DNA of 64,000 bases. Source: an uncultured Pseudomonadales bacterium. Lineage in GTDB: Bacteria > Pseudomonadota > Gammaproteobacteria > Pseudomonadales > UBA7434. The notes under the pieces are model-generated. The model saw only the letters and a program-made list of their open reading frames with translations. It searched no databases and was not told the origin of the DNA. Where the stretch lies: positions 128,229-192,228 of the forward strand of contig CALSRU010000001.1 in assembly GCA_943788835.1 (NCBI GenBank). The letters run 5' to 3'. Positions 13,866 through 48,555 of this stretch are shown here, one piece after another (within the stretch, counting starts at the first letter, position 1; every line of letters begins with the position of its first letter). The position numbers and the translations under genes were made by a program.

Positions 13866-16640
<2,775 letters not shown>

Positions 16641-17741
16641 CTATATCACTTCGCTTACACACCCCTGTTTCACGTGAAACAGTTTTTTCTGCTTAGACTC
16701 AGGCCAATCAACGCCGGACAACTCCTCAGGAGAAATACACGTTAAAAATAGCTGCATATCCAAGTCGCCCAACAGCGCACACAGCCTCCGCTGATGCTCT
16801 GCATCCATTTCGGCCGGCAGGTCATCAACCAGCAAAATACAGCGCCGACCCGTCTGCTGTCTTAATAAACGCGTCTGAGCAAGCCGCAACGCACTCACTA
16901 CCAGCTTTTGTTGACCCCGCGAGAGTATTTGGCCCGCATCAGCTCCATGGATCGAAACAGTTAAATCAGCCCTATGAGGCCCGCTTTGGGTTAGGCCTCG
17001 CGCCCTATCTCGCGTCAAATTGCGATTAAGCACATCGGCATAGCTAAAGGTGCTATCCCAGCCGGGGCGATAAGCGAGCTCTATGCCATCCAGATCCAAC
17101 AGTTCACCCAGCATTCCATTAAAAACAGGAATAAAATCAGCCACGTAGGCCGACCTGGCTGAATGTATTGCAACACTAGCATCAATCAACTCACGGTCCC
17201 AAGGGGCTAGCTGCTGGACCGAGCCTTGCGCGCGGAGAATACTGTTGCGCTGCTTCAAAGCCTTTTGCGCGCGGCGCCACTGATCATAAAAAGAGTGTTC
17301 CACGTGAAACACACCCCAATCAAGAAATTGGCGCCGCTGTTTCGGTCCCCCATCTAACAACAAGTAAGACGCAGCATTGATCAGTTGCAACGGAAGCACT
17401 TCAGCAAGACGAACCACACTGCTCACCGCTTCGCCCCCAAGCTTAATCTTAAACCCCCCCCCTCTTGGTCGATGCACACCAACAGGAAGCTCAACTTGTT
17501 CGGGCCGAACTATACGGCCAAAAACCGTACAAGCCTCCGAATCACGCTGAATAACTGGTGAAAGCCCCGTACTACGAAATGATCGCGCCAAGCCTAGTAT
17601 ATATACCGATTCTAAAATCGACGTTTTACCCGCGCCATTCTCGCCAAAGATGATGTTGACGTCAGCCAAATCCTTTAAGTTGGCGCCCTGAACATTTCTA
17701 ACGTGGCTAATTTTTAGCTCTGACAGTTTCACGTGAAACAC
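16641..17741 (-). CDS. recF: DNA recombination/repair protein RecF
   Basis: SMC-like ATPase that with RecO and RecR loads RecA at single-strand gaps. The 366 residues match the family. Walker A is GENGAGKT (residues 33-40), the ABC-type signature is LSRGQQKLV and Walker B is CILLVDDLPAEMD. The start is GTG at 17741, with an alternative GTG at 17732; both fall inside a parS palindrome. Two further parS palindromes lie in the middle and at the 3' end, where they encode VFHVEH and LFHVKQ. The gene sits between dnaN and gyrB in the standard order. Confidence 0.97.
   Translation of the reverse strand: MFHVKLSELKISHVRNVQGANLKDLADVNIIFGENGAGKTSILESVYILGLARSFRSTGLSPVIQRDSEACTVFGRIVRPEQVELPVGVHRPRGGGFKIKLGGEAVSSVVRLAEVLPLQLINAASYLLLDGGPKQRRQFLDWGVFHVEHSFYDQWRRAQKALKQRNSILRAQGSVQQLAPWDRELIDASVAIHSARSAYVADFIPVFNGMLGELLDLDGIELAYRPGWDSTFSYADVLNRNLTRDRARGLTQSGPHRADLTVSIHGADAGQILSRGQQKLVVSALRLAQTRLLRQQTGRRCILLVDDLPAEMDAEHQRRLCALLGDLDMQLFLTCISPEELSGVDWPESKQKKLFHVKQGCVSEVI
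16666..16681. promoter_or_regulatory. parS centromere site (recF 3' end)
   Basis: TGTTTCACGTGAAACA, a perfect 16-base palindrome identical to the common bacterial parS sequence bound by ParB. It lies in the last codons of recF (read as FHVKQ), about 13 kb from parAB and 4-5 kb from the presumed oriC, where parS sites are expected. Confidence 0.93.
17296..17311. promoter_or_regulatory. parS centromere site (middle of recF)
   Basis: TGTTCCACGTGAAACA, a parS sequence differing from the perfect palindrome at one position, as many natural parS sites do. On the coding strand it is read VFHVEH inside RecF at about residues 144-149. Confidence 0.93.
17725..17740. promoter_or_regulatory. parS centromere site over the recF start codon
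   Basis: AGTTTCACGTGAAACA, with a perfect 14-base core (17726-17739). The recF GTG start codon and its in-frame alternative GTG are both within this site, so ParB bound here would sit on the recF initiation region in DNA. Confidence 0.9.
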
Positions 17742-17880: not shown

Positions 17881-18999
17881 CTAGAGCCTCATTGGCATGA
17901 CGACGTACATAGCGTTGTTACTAGGGTCACCATCCTGCACGAGCGCACTACTATTTGAATCCGACAACGTAATTGATATGGAATCGGCACCAAGCACGCC
18001 TAGCACGTCTATTAGATAGCTGACATTGAACCCCATTTCAAGGCTATCCCCTTGATAATCAACGGAAATTTCCTCGCTAGCCTCTTCCTGTTCCGGATTG
18101 TTAGCCTGCACGCCGACTGTTCCACTTTCGAGCATAAAACGCACACCGCGAAACTTTTCATTCGATAATATCGCAGTACGACTGAGCGCCGCCTTCAATT
18201 CCTGGCGATCTGCCAATACTTTTTTATCGCCACCTTTTGGCAGCACCCGCTTATAATCGGGGAACTTCCCATCTACCAGCTTGGATACAAAAACCAAGTC
18301 CCCGGCCGCAGCCCGAATATGGTTAGCGCTAAACTCCAAATCAATAGTCGCTGAATCATCATCATCGGTCAGCAAGCGGGCCAACTCAAGCACACCCTTA
18401 CGTGGAACAATAATTTGCTGTTGAGCCTGACTAGACGGCTTTGTTAAATGAACATCTGCGATCGCTAAGCGATGCCCATCAGTGGCAACCGCGCGCAAGT
18501 TTTGCTCTGTCAACTCCCAAAGCATGCCGTTCAAATAATAGCGAACATCTTGCTGAGCCATTGAAAAGGCAGTTTTATGGATTAACTCTCCAAACTCCTT
18601 TTGCGGCACCGTTACCGAAAAGCTACTTTTATCGCGTTGCACTGAAGGAAAATCAGCAGCCGGCAGCGAAGCCAAAGAAAAGCGACTCCGACCAGACTGT
18701 ACGATCACTTTATTATCATCCGCCGTAACTTTGATTTCGCTATCGTCGGGTAGTGATTTACAAATATCAACGATTTTCCGAGCTGGTATCGTAACTGCGC
18801 CCTTAGTCTGCGTGTCATTCTCTACTGCCAGCTGAGCAGTCAACTCCACCTCAAGATCGGTACCGGTAATCAACAGCTTTTGACCTTCAAGCTTAAATAG
18901 CATGTTAGACAAAATAGGCATCGTTTGCCGACGCTCAACTGCACCCGCGACAATGGTCAGTGGCCGTAATAACGCTTCGCGTTGAACAGAAAATTTCAT
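17881..18999 (-). CDS. dnaN: DNA polymerase III beta sliding clamp
   Basis: Ring-shaped processivity clamp of the replicative polymerase. The start at ATG 18999 gives 372 residues beginning MKFSVQREALLRPL, the normal family N-terminus; the frame extends 14 codons further to 19041 but without family similarity. Typical clamp motifs are present: ILSNMLFKLEG, FPSVQRD-type loops, TDGHRLA near residue 175 and a C-terminal MPMRL, which forms part of the peptide-binding pocket region. It follows dnaA on the minus strand, in the usual dnaA-dnaN-recF-gyrB order. Confidence 0.98.
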   Translation of the reverse strand: MKFSVQREALLRPLTIVAGAVERRQTMPILSNMLFKLEGQKLLITGTDLEVELTAQLAVENDTQTKGAVTIPARKIVDICKSLPDDSEIKVTADDNKVIVQSGRSRFSLASLPAADFPSVQRDKSSFSVTVPQKEFGELIHKTAFSMAQQDVRYYLNGMLWELTEQNLRAVATDGHRLAIADVHLTKPSSQAQQQIIVPRKGVLELARLLTDDDDSATIDLEFSANHIRAAAGDLVFVSKLVDGKFPDYKRVLPKGGDKKVLADRQELKAALSRTAILSNEKFRGVRFMLESGTVGVQANNPEQEEASEEISVDYQGDSLEMGFNVSYLIDVLGVLGADSISITLSDSNSSALVQDGDPSNNAMYVVMPMRL

Positions 19000-19126
19000 A
19001 GTGTGACAAGCCTCTTTAGCCGGCTGATAGCCGATTAACAATGATCAATAATGAAGGTTTTAAAACAACCGAGACACGCTAAACACGCGCTTAATTCATA
19101 CGTCGTAATTTAAACACGCCCTGCAT

Positions 19127-20834
19127 TCATGTCGCTAGTGTTCTCAGTAAATTCTTATAATCCTCACGAATATCAGAGGTTGTATCGCGCAATTCCTTCA
19201 CCTTTCGGCAAGCATGCAAAACCGTCGTATGGTCGCGCCCTCCAAATGCATCGCCAATTTCAGGAAGACTATGATTCGTTAATTCCTTCGCCAAAGCCAT
19301 CGCAACCTGGCGAGGTCTAGCCACTGATCGGTTCCGCCGCTTAGACATCAAGTCAGACACTTTAATTTTGTAATATTCTGCGGTGGTGCGCTGAATGTTA
19401 TCTATGCTGACCTGTTTATCCTGTAGGGCTAATAGATCCTTAAGCGACTCTTTAACCAGCTCGACACTAATTGGTTTTTTAGTGAAGTGTGCGCTCGCTA
19501 TCACTCTTTTTAGAGCGCCCTCTAATTCTCGCACGTTAGAGCGCACTCGCTGCGCAAGAAACAAGGCCGCATCTTGAGGGAGTTCAATTTTGGCTTGCTC
19601 AGCCTTCCTCATTAAAATAGCTGCGCGGGTCTCGAGTTCCGGTGGCTCAATTGCGACTGTTAAACCCCAACTAAAGCGCGACTTCAGCCTCTCCTCAACA
19701 CCGTCCATTTCTTTAGGGTAGCGATCACAGGTCAGTATCATTTGTTGGCCGCCCTCAAGCAACGCATTGAAAGTATGAAAAAACTCTTCTTGGGAGCGGT
19801 CTTTATTAGCAAAAAATTGAATATCATCAATCAGCAATGCATCTACCGACCGGTAAAACCGTTTAAAGTCATTAATCGCGTTGAGCTGCAACGCCTTGAC
19901 CATGTCGGCAACGAACCGTTCGGAGTGCAAGTAAACCACCTTCGCGTTGGGTTTTAAGCGCTTCAACTCATTGCCTACAGCATGCATCAGGTGGGTCTTA
20001 CCAAGACCCACCCCGCCATATAAGAACAGCGGGTTATACGAGCCGCCCGGATTTTCTACCACCTGGATTGCGGCCGCACGGGCCATCTGATTAGATTTAC
20101 CTTCGATAAAGTTATCGAACTGGTACGCCCCGATCAAATTGTGCTGATGCCCACGAGTCTGCTCCGCCGCAACAGCTCTCCGCTCATACGCTAACTCCAG
20201 CGAACTGGCTGGGTGCTGCCGGTGCAACTGTGTTTCCGGCGATCCAATCGACGTATCAAAACTAATGGAAGGCGCGTGATCCGTATGCCCATACTGCATA
20301 GGTACCCCCCCGCTCAGCTAGAACACTGCTTAGCGAAGAGCCAGCATCGGTATGCCCAGCCTGACCTGACAGTGCCGTTCGGGCTTGCGCTGCGGCCCCG
20401 GGCAACCGCTGCACATACGCACCCCTGTCGACATTTATATCTGCTGTATGCTCATGCCGAGCAGGCTCAGATTCAGCAACCCCAACCTTTGATTGCTGCG
20501 CCATCGATGACTCTTGCCGACCATCCTCTCGAGAGGCAGGAGCAAATAGCCCAGCTTCACGGCGATGCTCAATTACGCCGATACTGACATTGGGTGCGGC
20601 CTGATCACTGAACCGCTGGACCGCATCTTTGATGTTGGTTAAAAACTTATCTGCCACCCAGCCTTGAATGAAGCGATTGGGCGCCAACAAACGCATAGCC
20701 CGATGGTCGCCCTCAGGCTCACCCAACACCAGCGGCCTGATCCAAGTATTAAATTGTTGCGCCGGCAATTCTTCTTTTAAAAACTCCAAACAGTGGCTCC
20801 ACGTTTGGCGCCATTGGGAAATGGACAATCTCAC
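19127..20834 (-). CDS. dnaA: Replication initiator DnaA, apparently frameshifted in the linker
   Basis: Initiator ATPase that binds DnaA boxes and melts oriC. The N-terminal part starts at GTG 20834 (GAGGAG just upstream; an in-frame TTG two codons later has better spacing). It encodes domain I ([23 protein letters not shown]) and linker, then runs out of frame and stops at 20262. The C-terminal part is open from ATG 20299 to 19127 and carries [16 protein letters not shown], Walker [10 protein letters not shown], Walker [10 protein letters not shown] and the domain IV DNA-binding [11 protein letters not shown]. The frames overlap at a run of seven G (20305-20311); six G would fuse them into about 568 codons, long for DnaA because of an extended linker. 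DnaA is essential, so a sequencing indel or slippage is more likely than a true null. Confidence 0.9.
20305..20311 (-). repeat. G7 homopolymer at the dnaA frameshift
   Basis: Seven G on the coding (minus) strand lie in the disordered linker of DnaA, exactly where the reading frame changes. Losing one G or gaining two restores the frame. Such tracts are frequent sites of sequencing error, replication slippage and transcriptional slippage. Confidence 0.9.
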
Positions 20835-29696: not shown

Positions 29697-30521
29697 TTGT
29701 CCCGAATATTTGCAATTACGAATCAAAAAGGCGGTGTAGGTAAAACGACTACATCGGTTAATTTGGCCGCATCATTGGCCGCTACTAAGCGCCGGGTGTT
29801 ATTAGTCGATTTAGACCCTCAAGGTAATGCCACCATGGGGAGCGGGGTCAACAAACACACCTGTGAGATTAATCTCTACGAAGTTCTGGTGTCAAAAGCC
29901 TCTGCTAGAGAAGCATTGCAGCGCAATACTTGTGGAGGCTTTGACATACTGCCCTCCAACAGCAATCTCACAGCAGCTGAAGTTGAACTGCTTTCGGTAG
30001 ACAATAAAGAGCGAGTGCTAACGCACGCGCTCGATCCATTGCGCATTGAATATGACTTTATTTTGATTGATTGTCCGCCCTCTCTCAATATGCTCACACT
30101 GAATGCGCTAGTTGCTGCTGATGGAGTGATTATCCCTATTCAGTGTGAATACTATGCGCTTGAAGGACTGTCGGCGCTTATGAACACCATTGCTAAAGTT
30201 GCTGAAAGCATTAACCCAGATATCAAAATAGAGGGCTTATTGCGTACTATGTATGACCCCCGCAACAGTTTGACTAATGATGTCTCTAACCAGCTCCTCC
30301 AACACTTTGGTGAGCGGGTATATCGAACTGTGATTCCTCGTAATGTGCGTTTAGCAGAAGCACCGAGTCACGGTGAGCCCGCCCTGATTTACGATGCGCA
30401 GTCTAAAGGGGCTCAGGCTTATCTCGCTTTGGCAGGTGAATTGTTGCGCAAAGAAGAAGCTAAAAAACCTGTTAGTAGAAGAAAGCCGCAGCAGGTAACG
30501 CAATCTTCATGGGCTGATTAG
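29697..30521 (+). CDS. parA: Chromosome partitioning ATPase ParA (Soj)
   Basis: Walker-type ATPase that forms a dynamic gradient on the nucleoid and moves ParB-parS complexes. The 274 residues include the deviant Walker A KGGVGKTT (residues 11-18), LLVDLDPQGNAT and LIDCPPSLNMLTLNAL, all typical of chromosomal ParA. The frame opens with TTG at 29697, giving the normal start S-R-I-F-A-I-T-N. The C-terminus is rich in Lys and Arg. It is 76 bases upstream of parB, and three parS sites lie within 13 kb. Confidence 0.97.
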   Translation: MSRIFAITNQKGGVGKTTTSVNLAASLAATKRRVLLVDLDPQGNATMGSGVNKHTCEINLYEVLVSKASAREALQRNTCGGFDILPSNSNLTAAEVELLSVDNKERVLTHALDPLRIEYDFILIDCPPSLNMLTLNALVAADGVIIPIQCEYYALEGLSALMNTIAKVAESINPDIKIEGLLRTMYDPRNSLTNDVSNQLLQHFGERVYRTVIPRNVRLAEAPSHGEPALIYDAQSKGAQAYLALAGELLRKEEAKKPVSRRKPQQVTQSSWAD

Positions 30522-30597: not shown

Positions 30598-31593
30598 ATG
30601 GCAGGCAAAAAAAAAGGTTTGGGTAAAGGCTTAGATGCTCTGTTAGGTGGCATCAATACACAAATGAATGATGCCGCAGATAGCCCAATCTCACCAACCC
30701 AGTCTGCAACCGGTGCTAGCACTGCACAAACACCAGACGATTCTCAAATAGCTCAGCAAGGCGCTTTGGATAGCCCCATGTCTCTAGCCGATGCCAACCG
30801 AGTAGTACAAGTGCCGGTTGAGCACTGTCAGCGTGGTAAATACCAGCCGCGCCGCGCTATTGATAACGAAGCCCTAGAAGAGCTGGCCAGCTCTATTGTA
30901 AGTCAGGGTGTTATGCAGCCTATTATTTTGCGCGAGCTAGCAGCGCCTCAGCTAAGTGGAGCTAAGTATGAGATTGTAGCTGGCGAGCGCCGTTGGCGCG
31001 CCTCCCAGTTAGCTGGACTTCAGGCTGTGCCAGCTATTGTAAGAGATTTAGATGATGAAGCTGCCAGCGCAATGGCGTTGATCGAAAACTTGCAGCGTGA
31101 GGATCTTAATCCTATGGATCAAGCGCATGCGCTTGCCCGGCTTCAAGAACAATTTGAGTTTACTCACCAGCAAATAGCCGATTTAGTCGGCAAGTCCCGC
31201 GCAGCCGTCTCTAATTTTTTACGCCTGCTAGGGCTGCAAGTTAAGGTGCAGCAGCTCCTTGAAAATGGTGATTTAGAGATGGGTCATGCGCGCGCGTTGC
31301 TGGCTGTGGATCAAGATACCCAACAAAAACTTGCACGAGAAGTGGTGAACCAAAGCTTGACGGTCCGCCAGACTGAGGCCTTGGTCAAAAAACAGCTCAA
31401 TCCCAAGAAGTTGCCTGCTGCAAATGCAGTTCCTGCTGGTCGTGATGCCAATATTGACCGCCTTCAAAACGACCTGTCTGAAAAGTTGGGTGTCCCGGTT
31501 TTGGTTAAGCACGCTAGTAGTGGTCAGGGCCAATTGATATTGAAGTACCACAACCTTGATGAATTAGATGGTATTTTGGAACATATTAAGTAG
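30598..31593 (+). CDS. parB: Chromosome partitioning protein ParB (Spo0J)
   Basis: CTP-dependent DNA clamp that loads at parS and spreads to form the partition complex. The 331 residues open with the Lys/Gly-rich MAGKKKGLGKGLDALLGG, a ParA-stimulating peptide type. The CTP-binding core has QPRRAID and the GERRWRASQLAG motif (about residues 126-137). The helix-turn-helix that reads parS is QQIADLVGKSRAAVSNFLRL (about 197-216). A C-terminal dimerisation domain follows a Pro/Gln linker. Its targets are the parS sites inside recF. Confidence 0.98.
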   Translation: MAGKKKGLGKGLDALLGGINTQMNDAADSPISPTQSATGASTAQTPDDSQIAQQGALDSPMSLADANRVVQVPVEHCQRGKYQPRRAIDNEALEELASSIVSQGVMQPIILRELAAPQLSGAKYEIVAGERRWRASQLAGLQAVPAIVRDLDDEAASAMALIENLQREDLNPMDQAHALARLQEQFEFTHQQIADLVGKSRAAVSNFLRLLGLQVKVQQLLENGDLEMGHARALLAVDQDTQQKLAREVVNQSLTVRQTEALVKKQLNPKKLPAANAVPAGRDANIDRLQNDLSEKLGVPVLVKHASSGQGQLILKYHNLDELDGILEHIK

Positions 31594-48162: not shown

Positions 48163-48555
48163 CTAGGCAATTTTGCGTGTACGGCCACGCTCATCGATAG
48201 CAACAAAAGCAAAGACGCCTTCGGTAACTTTTTTCTGTTCGCCGTGCAACATTGGCGAATCGATCCATACTTCAACAAACACTTCGATAGAGCTGCGCCC
48301 AATATTTACCACTTCGGTATAAAAGCTTACCAATGCGCCTACTTTAACAGGCACCAAAAAGTTCATATTCCCCGCGGCTACTGTGGCCACTCGGCCTTGC
48401 GCTACTTTGCGGGCGGTAACGCCGCAGGCAAGGTCCATTTGAGACATCAACCAGCCAGCATAAATGTCGCCTAGTGGATTAGTATCACTAATGTTTGCTA
48501 ACACCTGTAAAATAAGTGCCCCAGTAGGCTGAGGGGTTTTATCGATTTCATTCAT
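48163..48555 (-). CDS. YciA-like hotdog acyl-CoA thioesterase
   Basis: Small thioesterase of about 130 residues, predicted to hydrolyse acyl-CoA. The hotdog fold is shown by the order GALILQVLANISDTNPLGD, YAGWLMSQMDLACG with the catalytic Asp, and NFLVPVKVGALVSFYTEVV. Family members such as E. coli YciA act on short- and medium-chain acyl-CoA. It lies between convergent TRAP genes, on the strand of the permeases, but 132 bases upstream of dctM, so a shared role is uncertain. Confidence 0.88.
   Translation of the reverse strand: MNEIDKTPQPTGALILQVLANISDTNPLGDIYAGWLMSQMDLACGVTARKVAQGRVATVAAGNMNFLVPVKVGALVSFYTEVVNIGRSSIEVFVEVWIDSPMLHGEQKKVTEGVFAFVAIDERGRTRKIA

Follow-up and report, generated by a model that had tools for sequence, protein, structure and literature searches.

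parS palindromes within recF of Gammaproteobacteria and a genus-specific copy at the recF start codon

The recF gene of an uncultured Pseudomonadales bacterium carries three palindromes of the chromosomal parS type, one of them lying across the point at which the gene begins. This raises the question of whether a chromosome can hold its centromere inside protein-coding sequence, or whether the palindromes simply follow from the amino acids that RecF carries at these positions, and whether the arrangement is peculiar to this organism. We addressed these points starting from a stretch of 64,000 nucleotides that contains the gene (hereafter the window).

Scanning the window returned three exact parS cores (GTTYCACGTGRAAC) inside recF, each belonging to the chromosomal parS type, a 16-bp palindrome (TGTTYCACGTGRAACA) with this core. 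They lie at the 3' end, the middle and the start of the gene with the readings FHVKQ, VFHVEH and FHVKL, as the preliminary description had proposed, and the sites that it called near-perfect have exact cores. A fourth match, at 48236, has three mismatches and is at chance level; shuffled windows gave 0.20 expected matches at up to three mismatches, and none of 100 shuffles reached four. Across the whole genome (2,756,602 bp, 99% complete, 17 contigs) the three recF sites are the only exact cores, with about 0.04 expected by chance per genome. Allowing up to two mismatches in the genome search yielded no further exact or one-mismatch core, every other match having two mismatches.

The surroundings of recF agree with the earlier statement that the sites are close to oriC (Table 1). 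The gene is flanked by dnaN on one side and gyrB on the other, which places the sites approximately 1.4-2.5 kb from the 3' end of dnaA, and the cumulative GC skew of the window turns at about 24-26 kb. The dnaA gene itself is split into two overlapping frames (window 20262-20345) near a run of seven G; as a close relative (G003) is one base shorter at this run, the split is probably a sequencing or assembly error, the alternative being a real frameshift. Cognate ParA and ParB are both encoded in the window, with parB approximately 13 kb from the sites. At the sequence level, this ParB has the CTP-binding motif together with the parS-reading residues R173 and G201, which every parS-reading ParB protein is reported to share (PMC7383237).

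Table 1. Features of the recF and par regions in window coordinates. Letters of the parS sites are those of the plus strand, whereas recF itself lies on the minus strand; codons are given in the recF frame.
Feature	Position	Strand	Remarks
gyrB	13866..16289	-	domain search
recF	16641..17741	-	PF02463; TIGR00611, 342.6 bits
parS site 1, recF 3' position	16666..16681		TGTTTCACGTGAAACA; CTG-TTT-CAC-GTG-AAA-CAG, RecF reading LFHVKQ
parS site 2, recF middle position	17296..17311		TGTTCCACGTGAAACA; GTG-TTT-CAC-GTG-GAA-CAC, RecF reading VFHVEH after DWG
parS site 3, recF initiation region	17725..17740		AGTTTCACGTGAAACA; GTG-TTT-CAC-GTG-AAA-CTG, reading (start)FHVKL
recF start candidate 2, GTG	17730..17732	-	right half of the central CACGTG; in alignment falls on the start usual in RecF (MSLxR...VRN)
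recF start candidate 1, GTG	17739..17741	-	NTG in 12/12 genus genomes; TG shared with the site 3 16-mer; in-frame TGA directly upstream
dnaN	17881..19041	-	domain search
dnaA	19127..20834	-	two overlapping frames, 20834-20262 and 20299-19127; domain search, sequence
parA (ATPase)	29697..30521	+	PF13614
parB	30598..31593	+	sole HTH_ParB match in the genome; GERRxR box, GKSR (R173), GHARAL (G201), Caulobacter numbering

We infer that the chromosomal ParABS system uses the three palindromes as its parS sites and that, counted by exact sites, they make up the whole centromere of this genome, a reading to which we assign a probability of about 0.9; the word whole applies to exact cores, since exact-match searches miss sites that are degenerate but functional. 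In this protein family ParB-CTP is reported to load at parS, to close as a clamp and then to move by sliding (PMC7053999, PMC8367383). Applied to this locus, ParB-CTP would load at each of the recF sites, and the closed clamps would slide across recF and the neighbouring genes and would offer the origin region to ParA. The SMC condensin is also recruited by parS-bound ParB in B. subtilis and other systems, and by analogy the main task of the sites could be ParB-mediated loading of the chromosome condensin, with ParA-dependent segregation coming second. This seems rather unlikely, and it is compatible with the centromere reading rather than opposed to it.

The sites here are ordinary parS, and their presence in recF is already known from Pseudomonas aeruginosa, in which parS1 and parS2 lie within the gene (PMC5521831, PMC3909081) and one site of the parS1-4 cluster is enough for segregation (PMC4368675). 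The present genome likewise has parS in recF near oriC (two sites in P. aeruginosa), with sites at RecF DWG-[V/L/M]FHV[E/K] and at the C-terminal FHV[E/K]xG that form a P. aeruginosa-type recF pair. It differs from P. aeruginosa, where parS3, parS4 and others lie outside recF, in having all its exact sites within the gene, with no other exact core in the genome. It differs further in the third site, which covers the recF start, a position at which none is reported in P. aeruginosa. In every Pseudomonas locus that we examined, recF has parS at the homologous middle position, the homologous 3' position or both; the same position is presumed for P. aeruginosa, as that species is absent from these loci.

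Other systems share the components and the neighbourhood to differing degrees. The parS of Xanthomonas citri is of the same palindrome type and lies in the same dnaN-gyrB neighbourhood, but at least one reported site is at the 3' end of dnaN rather than in recF (PMC3937727). The recF-gyrB region of Caulobacter is a hot spot only for experimental parS insertion (PMC5815017). The ParABS systems of Caulobacter crescentus and Bacillus subtilis have in common with the present one the ParB residues R173 and G201, the GERRxR box and GTTYCACGTGRAAC-type sites near oriC. To our knowledge, parS is not known from recF in either organism. The literature searched contains no description of order-wide or class-wide recF positions, of codon freezing or of a start-codon site; outside that search stands the 2007 survey of Livny, Yamaichi and Waldor, which reportedly catalogues parS across bacteria and places the sites mostly close to the origin.

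The third site does overlap the initiation codon of recF, as had been claimed, whichever of the two candidate GTG codons is used; neither has a Shine-Dalgarno match that is both strong and well spaced, so such matches do not decide between them. The family, as sampled, consists of one genus, and the start and middle sites are present in all 12 of its genomes, being kept even where RecF is as little as 52% identical to that of the window. The 3' site is kept in five, and the remaining seven read VFQVLK, VFELER, VYDVEK and similar at that position. Every exact parS in these 12 genomes lies inside recF or just behind it, one genome (G006) having two additional sites in the gap behind the gene. 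Throughout the genus the start palindrome is preceded by A, G or T and never by C, giving ATG, GTG or TTG. In 8 of the 12, the sole start codons at the conserved N-terminus lie within parS or at its edge, because no in-frame start occurs upstream of parS before a stop.

No start site at this spacing was seen in recF of any sampled genome outside the genus. The pair pattern matched two outside genomes alone: in G266 the matched sequence is not the start-middle pair reading FHVKL, and in G408 it proved to be a tandem array and not a recF pair. Judged by the genomes sampled, the start-codon parS is a genus-specific addition, the new one among the sites described here, and the overlap is in this sense as unusual as the preliminary description held. 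Extra parS sites upstream of recF were observed in other gammaproteobacteria, at position 1994 of locus L217 (approximately 50 bp before the start), 112 of L218, and 49 and 119 of L219; sites near the start codon, though not on it, therefore arise elsewhere.

As the preliminary description had raised for recF transcription, the start-codon site might also be regulatory, with bound ParB or an mRNA hairpin controlling recF and so tying repair, or the downstream gyrB, to segregation. The eight genomes whose only in-frame start codons at the conserved N-terminus fall within parS or at its edge would fit this idea, as would the absence of C before the palindrome in all 12, the 5-bp stem with a 4-nt loop that can form there, and the lowering of transcripts from the recF-gyrB region by excess ParB in P. 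aeruginosa (PMC5521831). However, the reading frame alone explains the arrangement, and at native ParB levels the intragenic parS1 and parS2 of P. aeruginosa leave expression unchanged and affect the neighbouring genes solely under ParB excess (PMC5521831). The dnaN-recF gap contains no sigma-70-like promoter, and occlusion of a promoter at the recF start was rejected, there being no promoter-like site at that point. The RNA hairpin that could cover the start codon does not clearly exceed shuffled sequences in stability (z -1.0 to -1.5) and is not convincing. Among three terminator-like matches, a number near the shuffle mean, are two of the parS palindromes themselves (16665-16682 and 17295-17312). 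Control of recF by ParB through the start-codon overlap is thus possible but unsupported, and we regard a regulatory role as decidedly doubtful. We consider it highly improbable that in this genus the start-codon site makes ParB loading incompatible with translation or transcription of recF, so that recF, with gyrB behind it, would answer to ParB occupancy and hence to origin segregation.

The clustering of the sites inside a single gene had also been put forward as unusual. It is instead the common state in the order, frequent across Gammaproteobacteria and, as noted, published for P. aeruginosa. Our order sample spanned about 45 families, and the counts cover the genomes listed with recF. 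Among the 33 such genomes other than those of the genus, 28 carry both the middle and the 3' site in recF in the same frame, four carry parS at one of the two positions only and one at neither, so that 32 have at least one; in about 28 of the listed genomes every exact parS lies at these recF positions. The shared reading is [M/L/V]-F-H-V-[E/K]-[H/Q/P/R], and site 1 of the window is homologous to the C-terminal [M/L/V]FHV[E/K][H/Q]G parS of Pseudomonadales. Within 80 named Pseudomonadales loci, the middle site was found in about 70 and the 3' site in 76-79 (76 by alignment, more by direct reading). One order member, G046 (contig C1 1167451-1498359), has eight exact parS, of which one is at the recF 3' position and the other seven are spread over approximately 215 kb, starting approximately 115 kb away.

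The middle site extends across Gammaproteobacteria. When W-G-x-F-H-V-E was sought in any codons in 185 class genomes, sampled at roughly one per family, 84 matched; 81 of these use exactly TTY-CAC-GTG-GAA and, as we read the list, the F is preceded by an NTG codon in all 84. Genomes missed by the strict pattern provided 23 recF genes, with parS at the middle position in 13 and at the 3' position in 14. In the phylum sample all 16 matches are within Gammaproteobacteria, in recF and with both sites, and the RecF motif was found in no sampled genome outside the class. The recF position proves to be an ancient and widely shared location of the gammaproteobacterial centromere.

We then compared the codons at these positions with those expected from the rest of each recF gene's own usage, taking representatives that read FHV[E/K]. 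Codons compatible with parS were observed in 36 of 38 representatives at the middle position (2.4 expected), in 39 of 41 at the 3' position (2.8 expected) and, for the start site within the genus, in 12 of 12 (0.7 expected), although the accompanying P values are too extreme because related genomes were treated as independent and their shared descent ignored. The sites are conserved as DNA beyond what coding needs, and the suggestion that parS is held here under protein-coding constraint is borne out: the sites are in frame, the relatives' codons are frozen on parS-compatible triplets, and it is the palindrome itself, rather than the residues alone, that close relatives keep.

The amino acids themselves vary with the presence of parS. 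Middle sites with parS all have FHV[E/K] and after it a residue with a C-initial codon (H, Q, P or R), and the residue before the motif is almost always V, L or M (NTG codons). Where parS is absent, the recF positions read FHF, FHA, FHM, FHN, FHT, FQV, FEL, FYL and similar. E. coli RecF has CFHNEP and MFTVEK at the two positions, and its family is without chromosomal par genes (PMC3909081). Eight Pseudomonas loci read FHVEP in the middle without parS, suggesting that these residues have some value of their own. On these sequence comparisons, the middle and 3' parS positions have fixed the codons of recF and even its amino acids.

Genomes without recF provide a complementary view. In four genomes with no RecF by TIGR00611 (G373, G302, G367 and G348), dnaN and gyrB are adjacent on a single contig and the gap between them contains one or two parS; a fifth (G304) has parS just before gyrB. 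Sites in the short dnaN-gyrB gap of recF-less genomes are at L193 2782-2833, L194 3972-4015, L195 3970-4009 and L198 4455-4468. The site is therefore kept between dnaN and gyrB with or without recF. In another gammaproteobacterium, G408 (L220 and L222, contig C48), a tandem array of a 43-bp parS unit, with 14.3 copies according to TRF and 12 exact cores, lies directly upstream of gyrB (L222 1244-1858) and is flanked on its other side by an oxidoreductase-like ORF, not by recF. A further genome without detectable RecF, G398, has three exact parS (L196 6084, 6273 and 7198) that lie in or next to mnmG and rsmG and shortly ahead of parA; here the sites have thus shifted to the side of the origin region where the par genes are.

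That the palindromes are a mere by-product of conserved RecF residues (FHVE, FHVK) written in common codons, and have no role for ParB, has next to no likelihood: FHV[E/K] does occur often at both RecF positions, and FHVEP is retained in some Pseudomonas where parS is missing, but own-gene codon usage predicts only two to three parS-compatible representatives where nearly all are seen, the residues change where parS is absent, parS outlasts the loss of recF, and the start-site FHVK of the genus, although an addition to RecF, is perfectly parS-coded in every genome. An origin by chance or codon bias is ruled out by own-gene codon usage, the relatives and the recF-less genomes.

Returning to the centromere reading, recF would be the carrier, with the dnaN-gyrB slot beside oriC the long-standing home of gammaproteobacterial parS. 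The palindrome is tolerated within RecF because one frame spells NTG-TTY-CAC-GTG-RAA-CNN, that is [M/L/V or start]-F-H-V-[E/K]-[H/Q/P/R/L], residues that would be acceptable at two spots of the protein. We infer the order of gain and loss as follows: selection on the DNA would have fixed the codons and restricted the residues at these two spots, and in the genus a third site would have arisen at the 5' end of recF in the same frame, its NTG serving as the start codon. The start-codon position follows from the frame, as parS so read always begins with NTG, which is usable as M, L, V or a start.

These observations describe a predicted centromere kept for a very long time within coding sequence. 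The DNA-binding need of ParB, not the function of RecF, appears to explain two conserved short RecF motifs in Gammaproteobacteria, and conservation of RecF at these positions should not be taken as a sign of protein function. Sequenced genomes supply the natural experiments: parS lost and recF kept, with the residues drifting; recF lost, with parS persisting in the dnaN-gyrB interval; and a start codon that has acquired a new site. For uncultured gammaproteobacteria, recF offers a simple place in which to seek the centromere.
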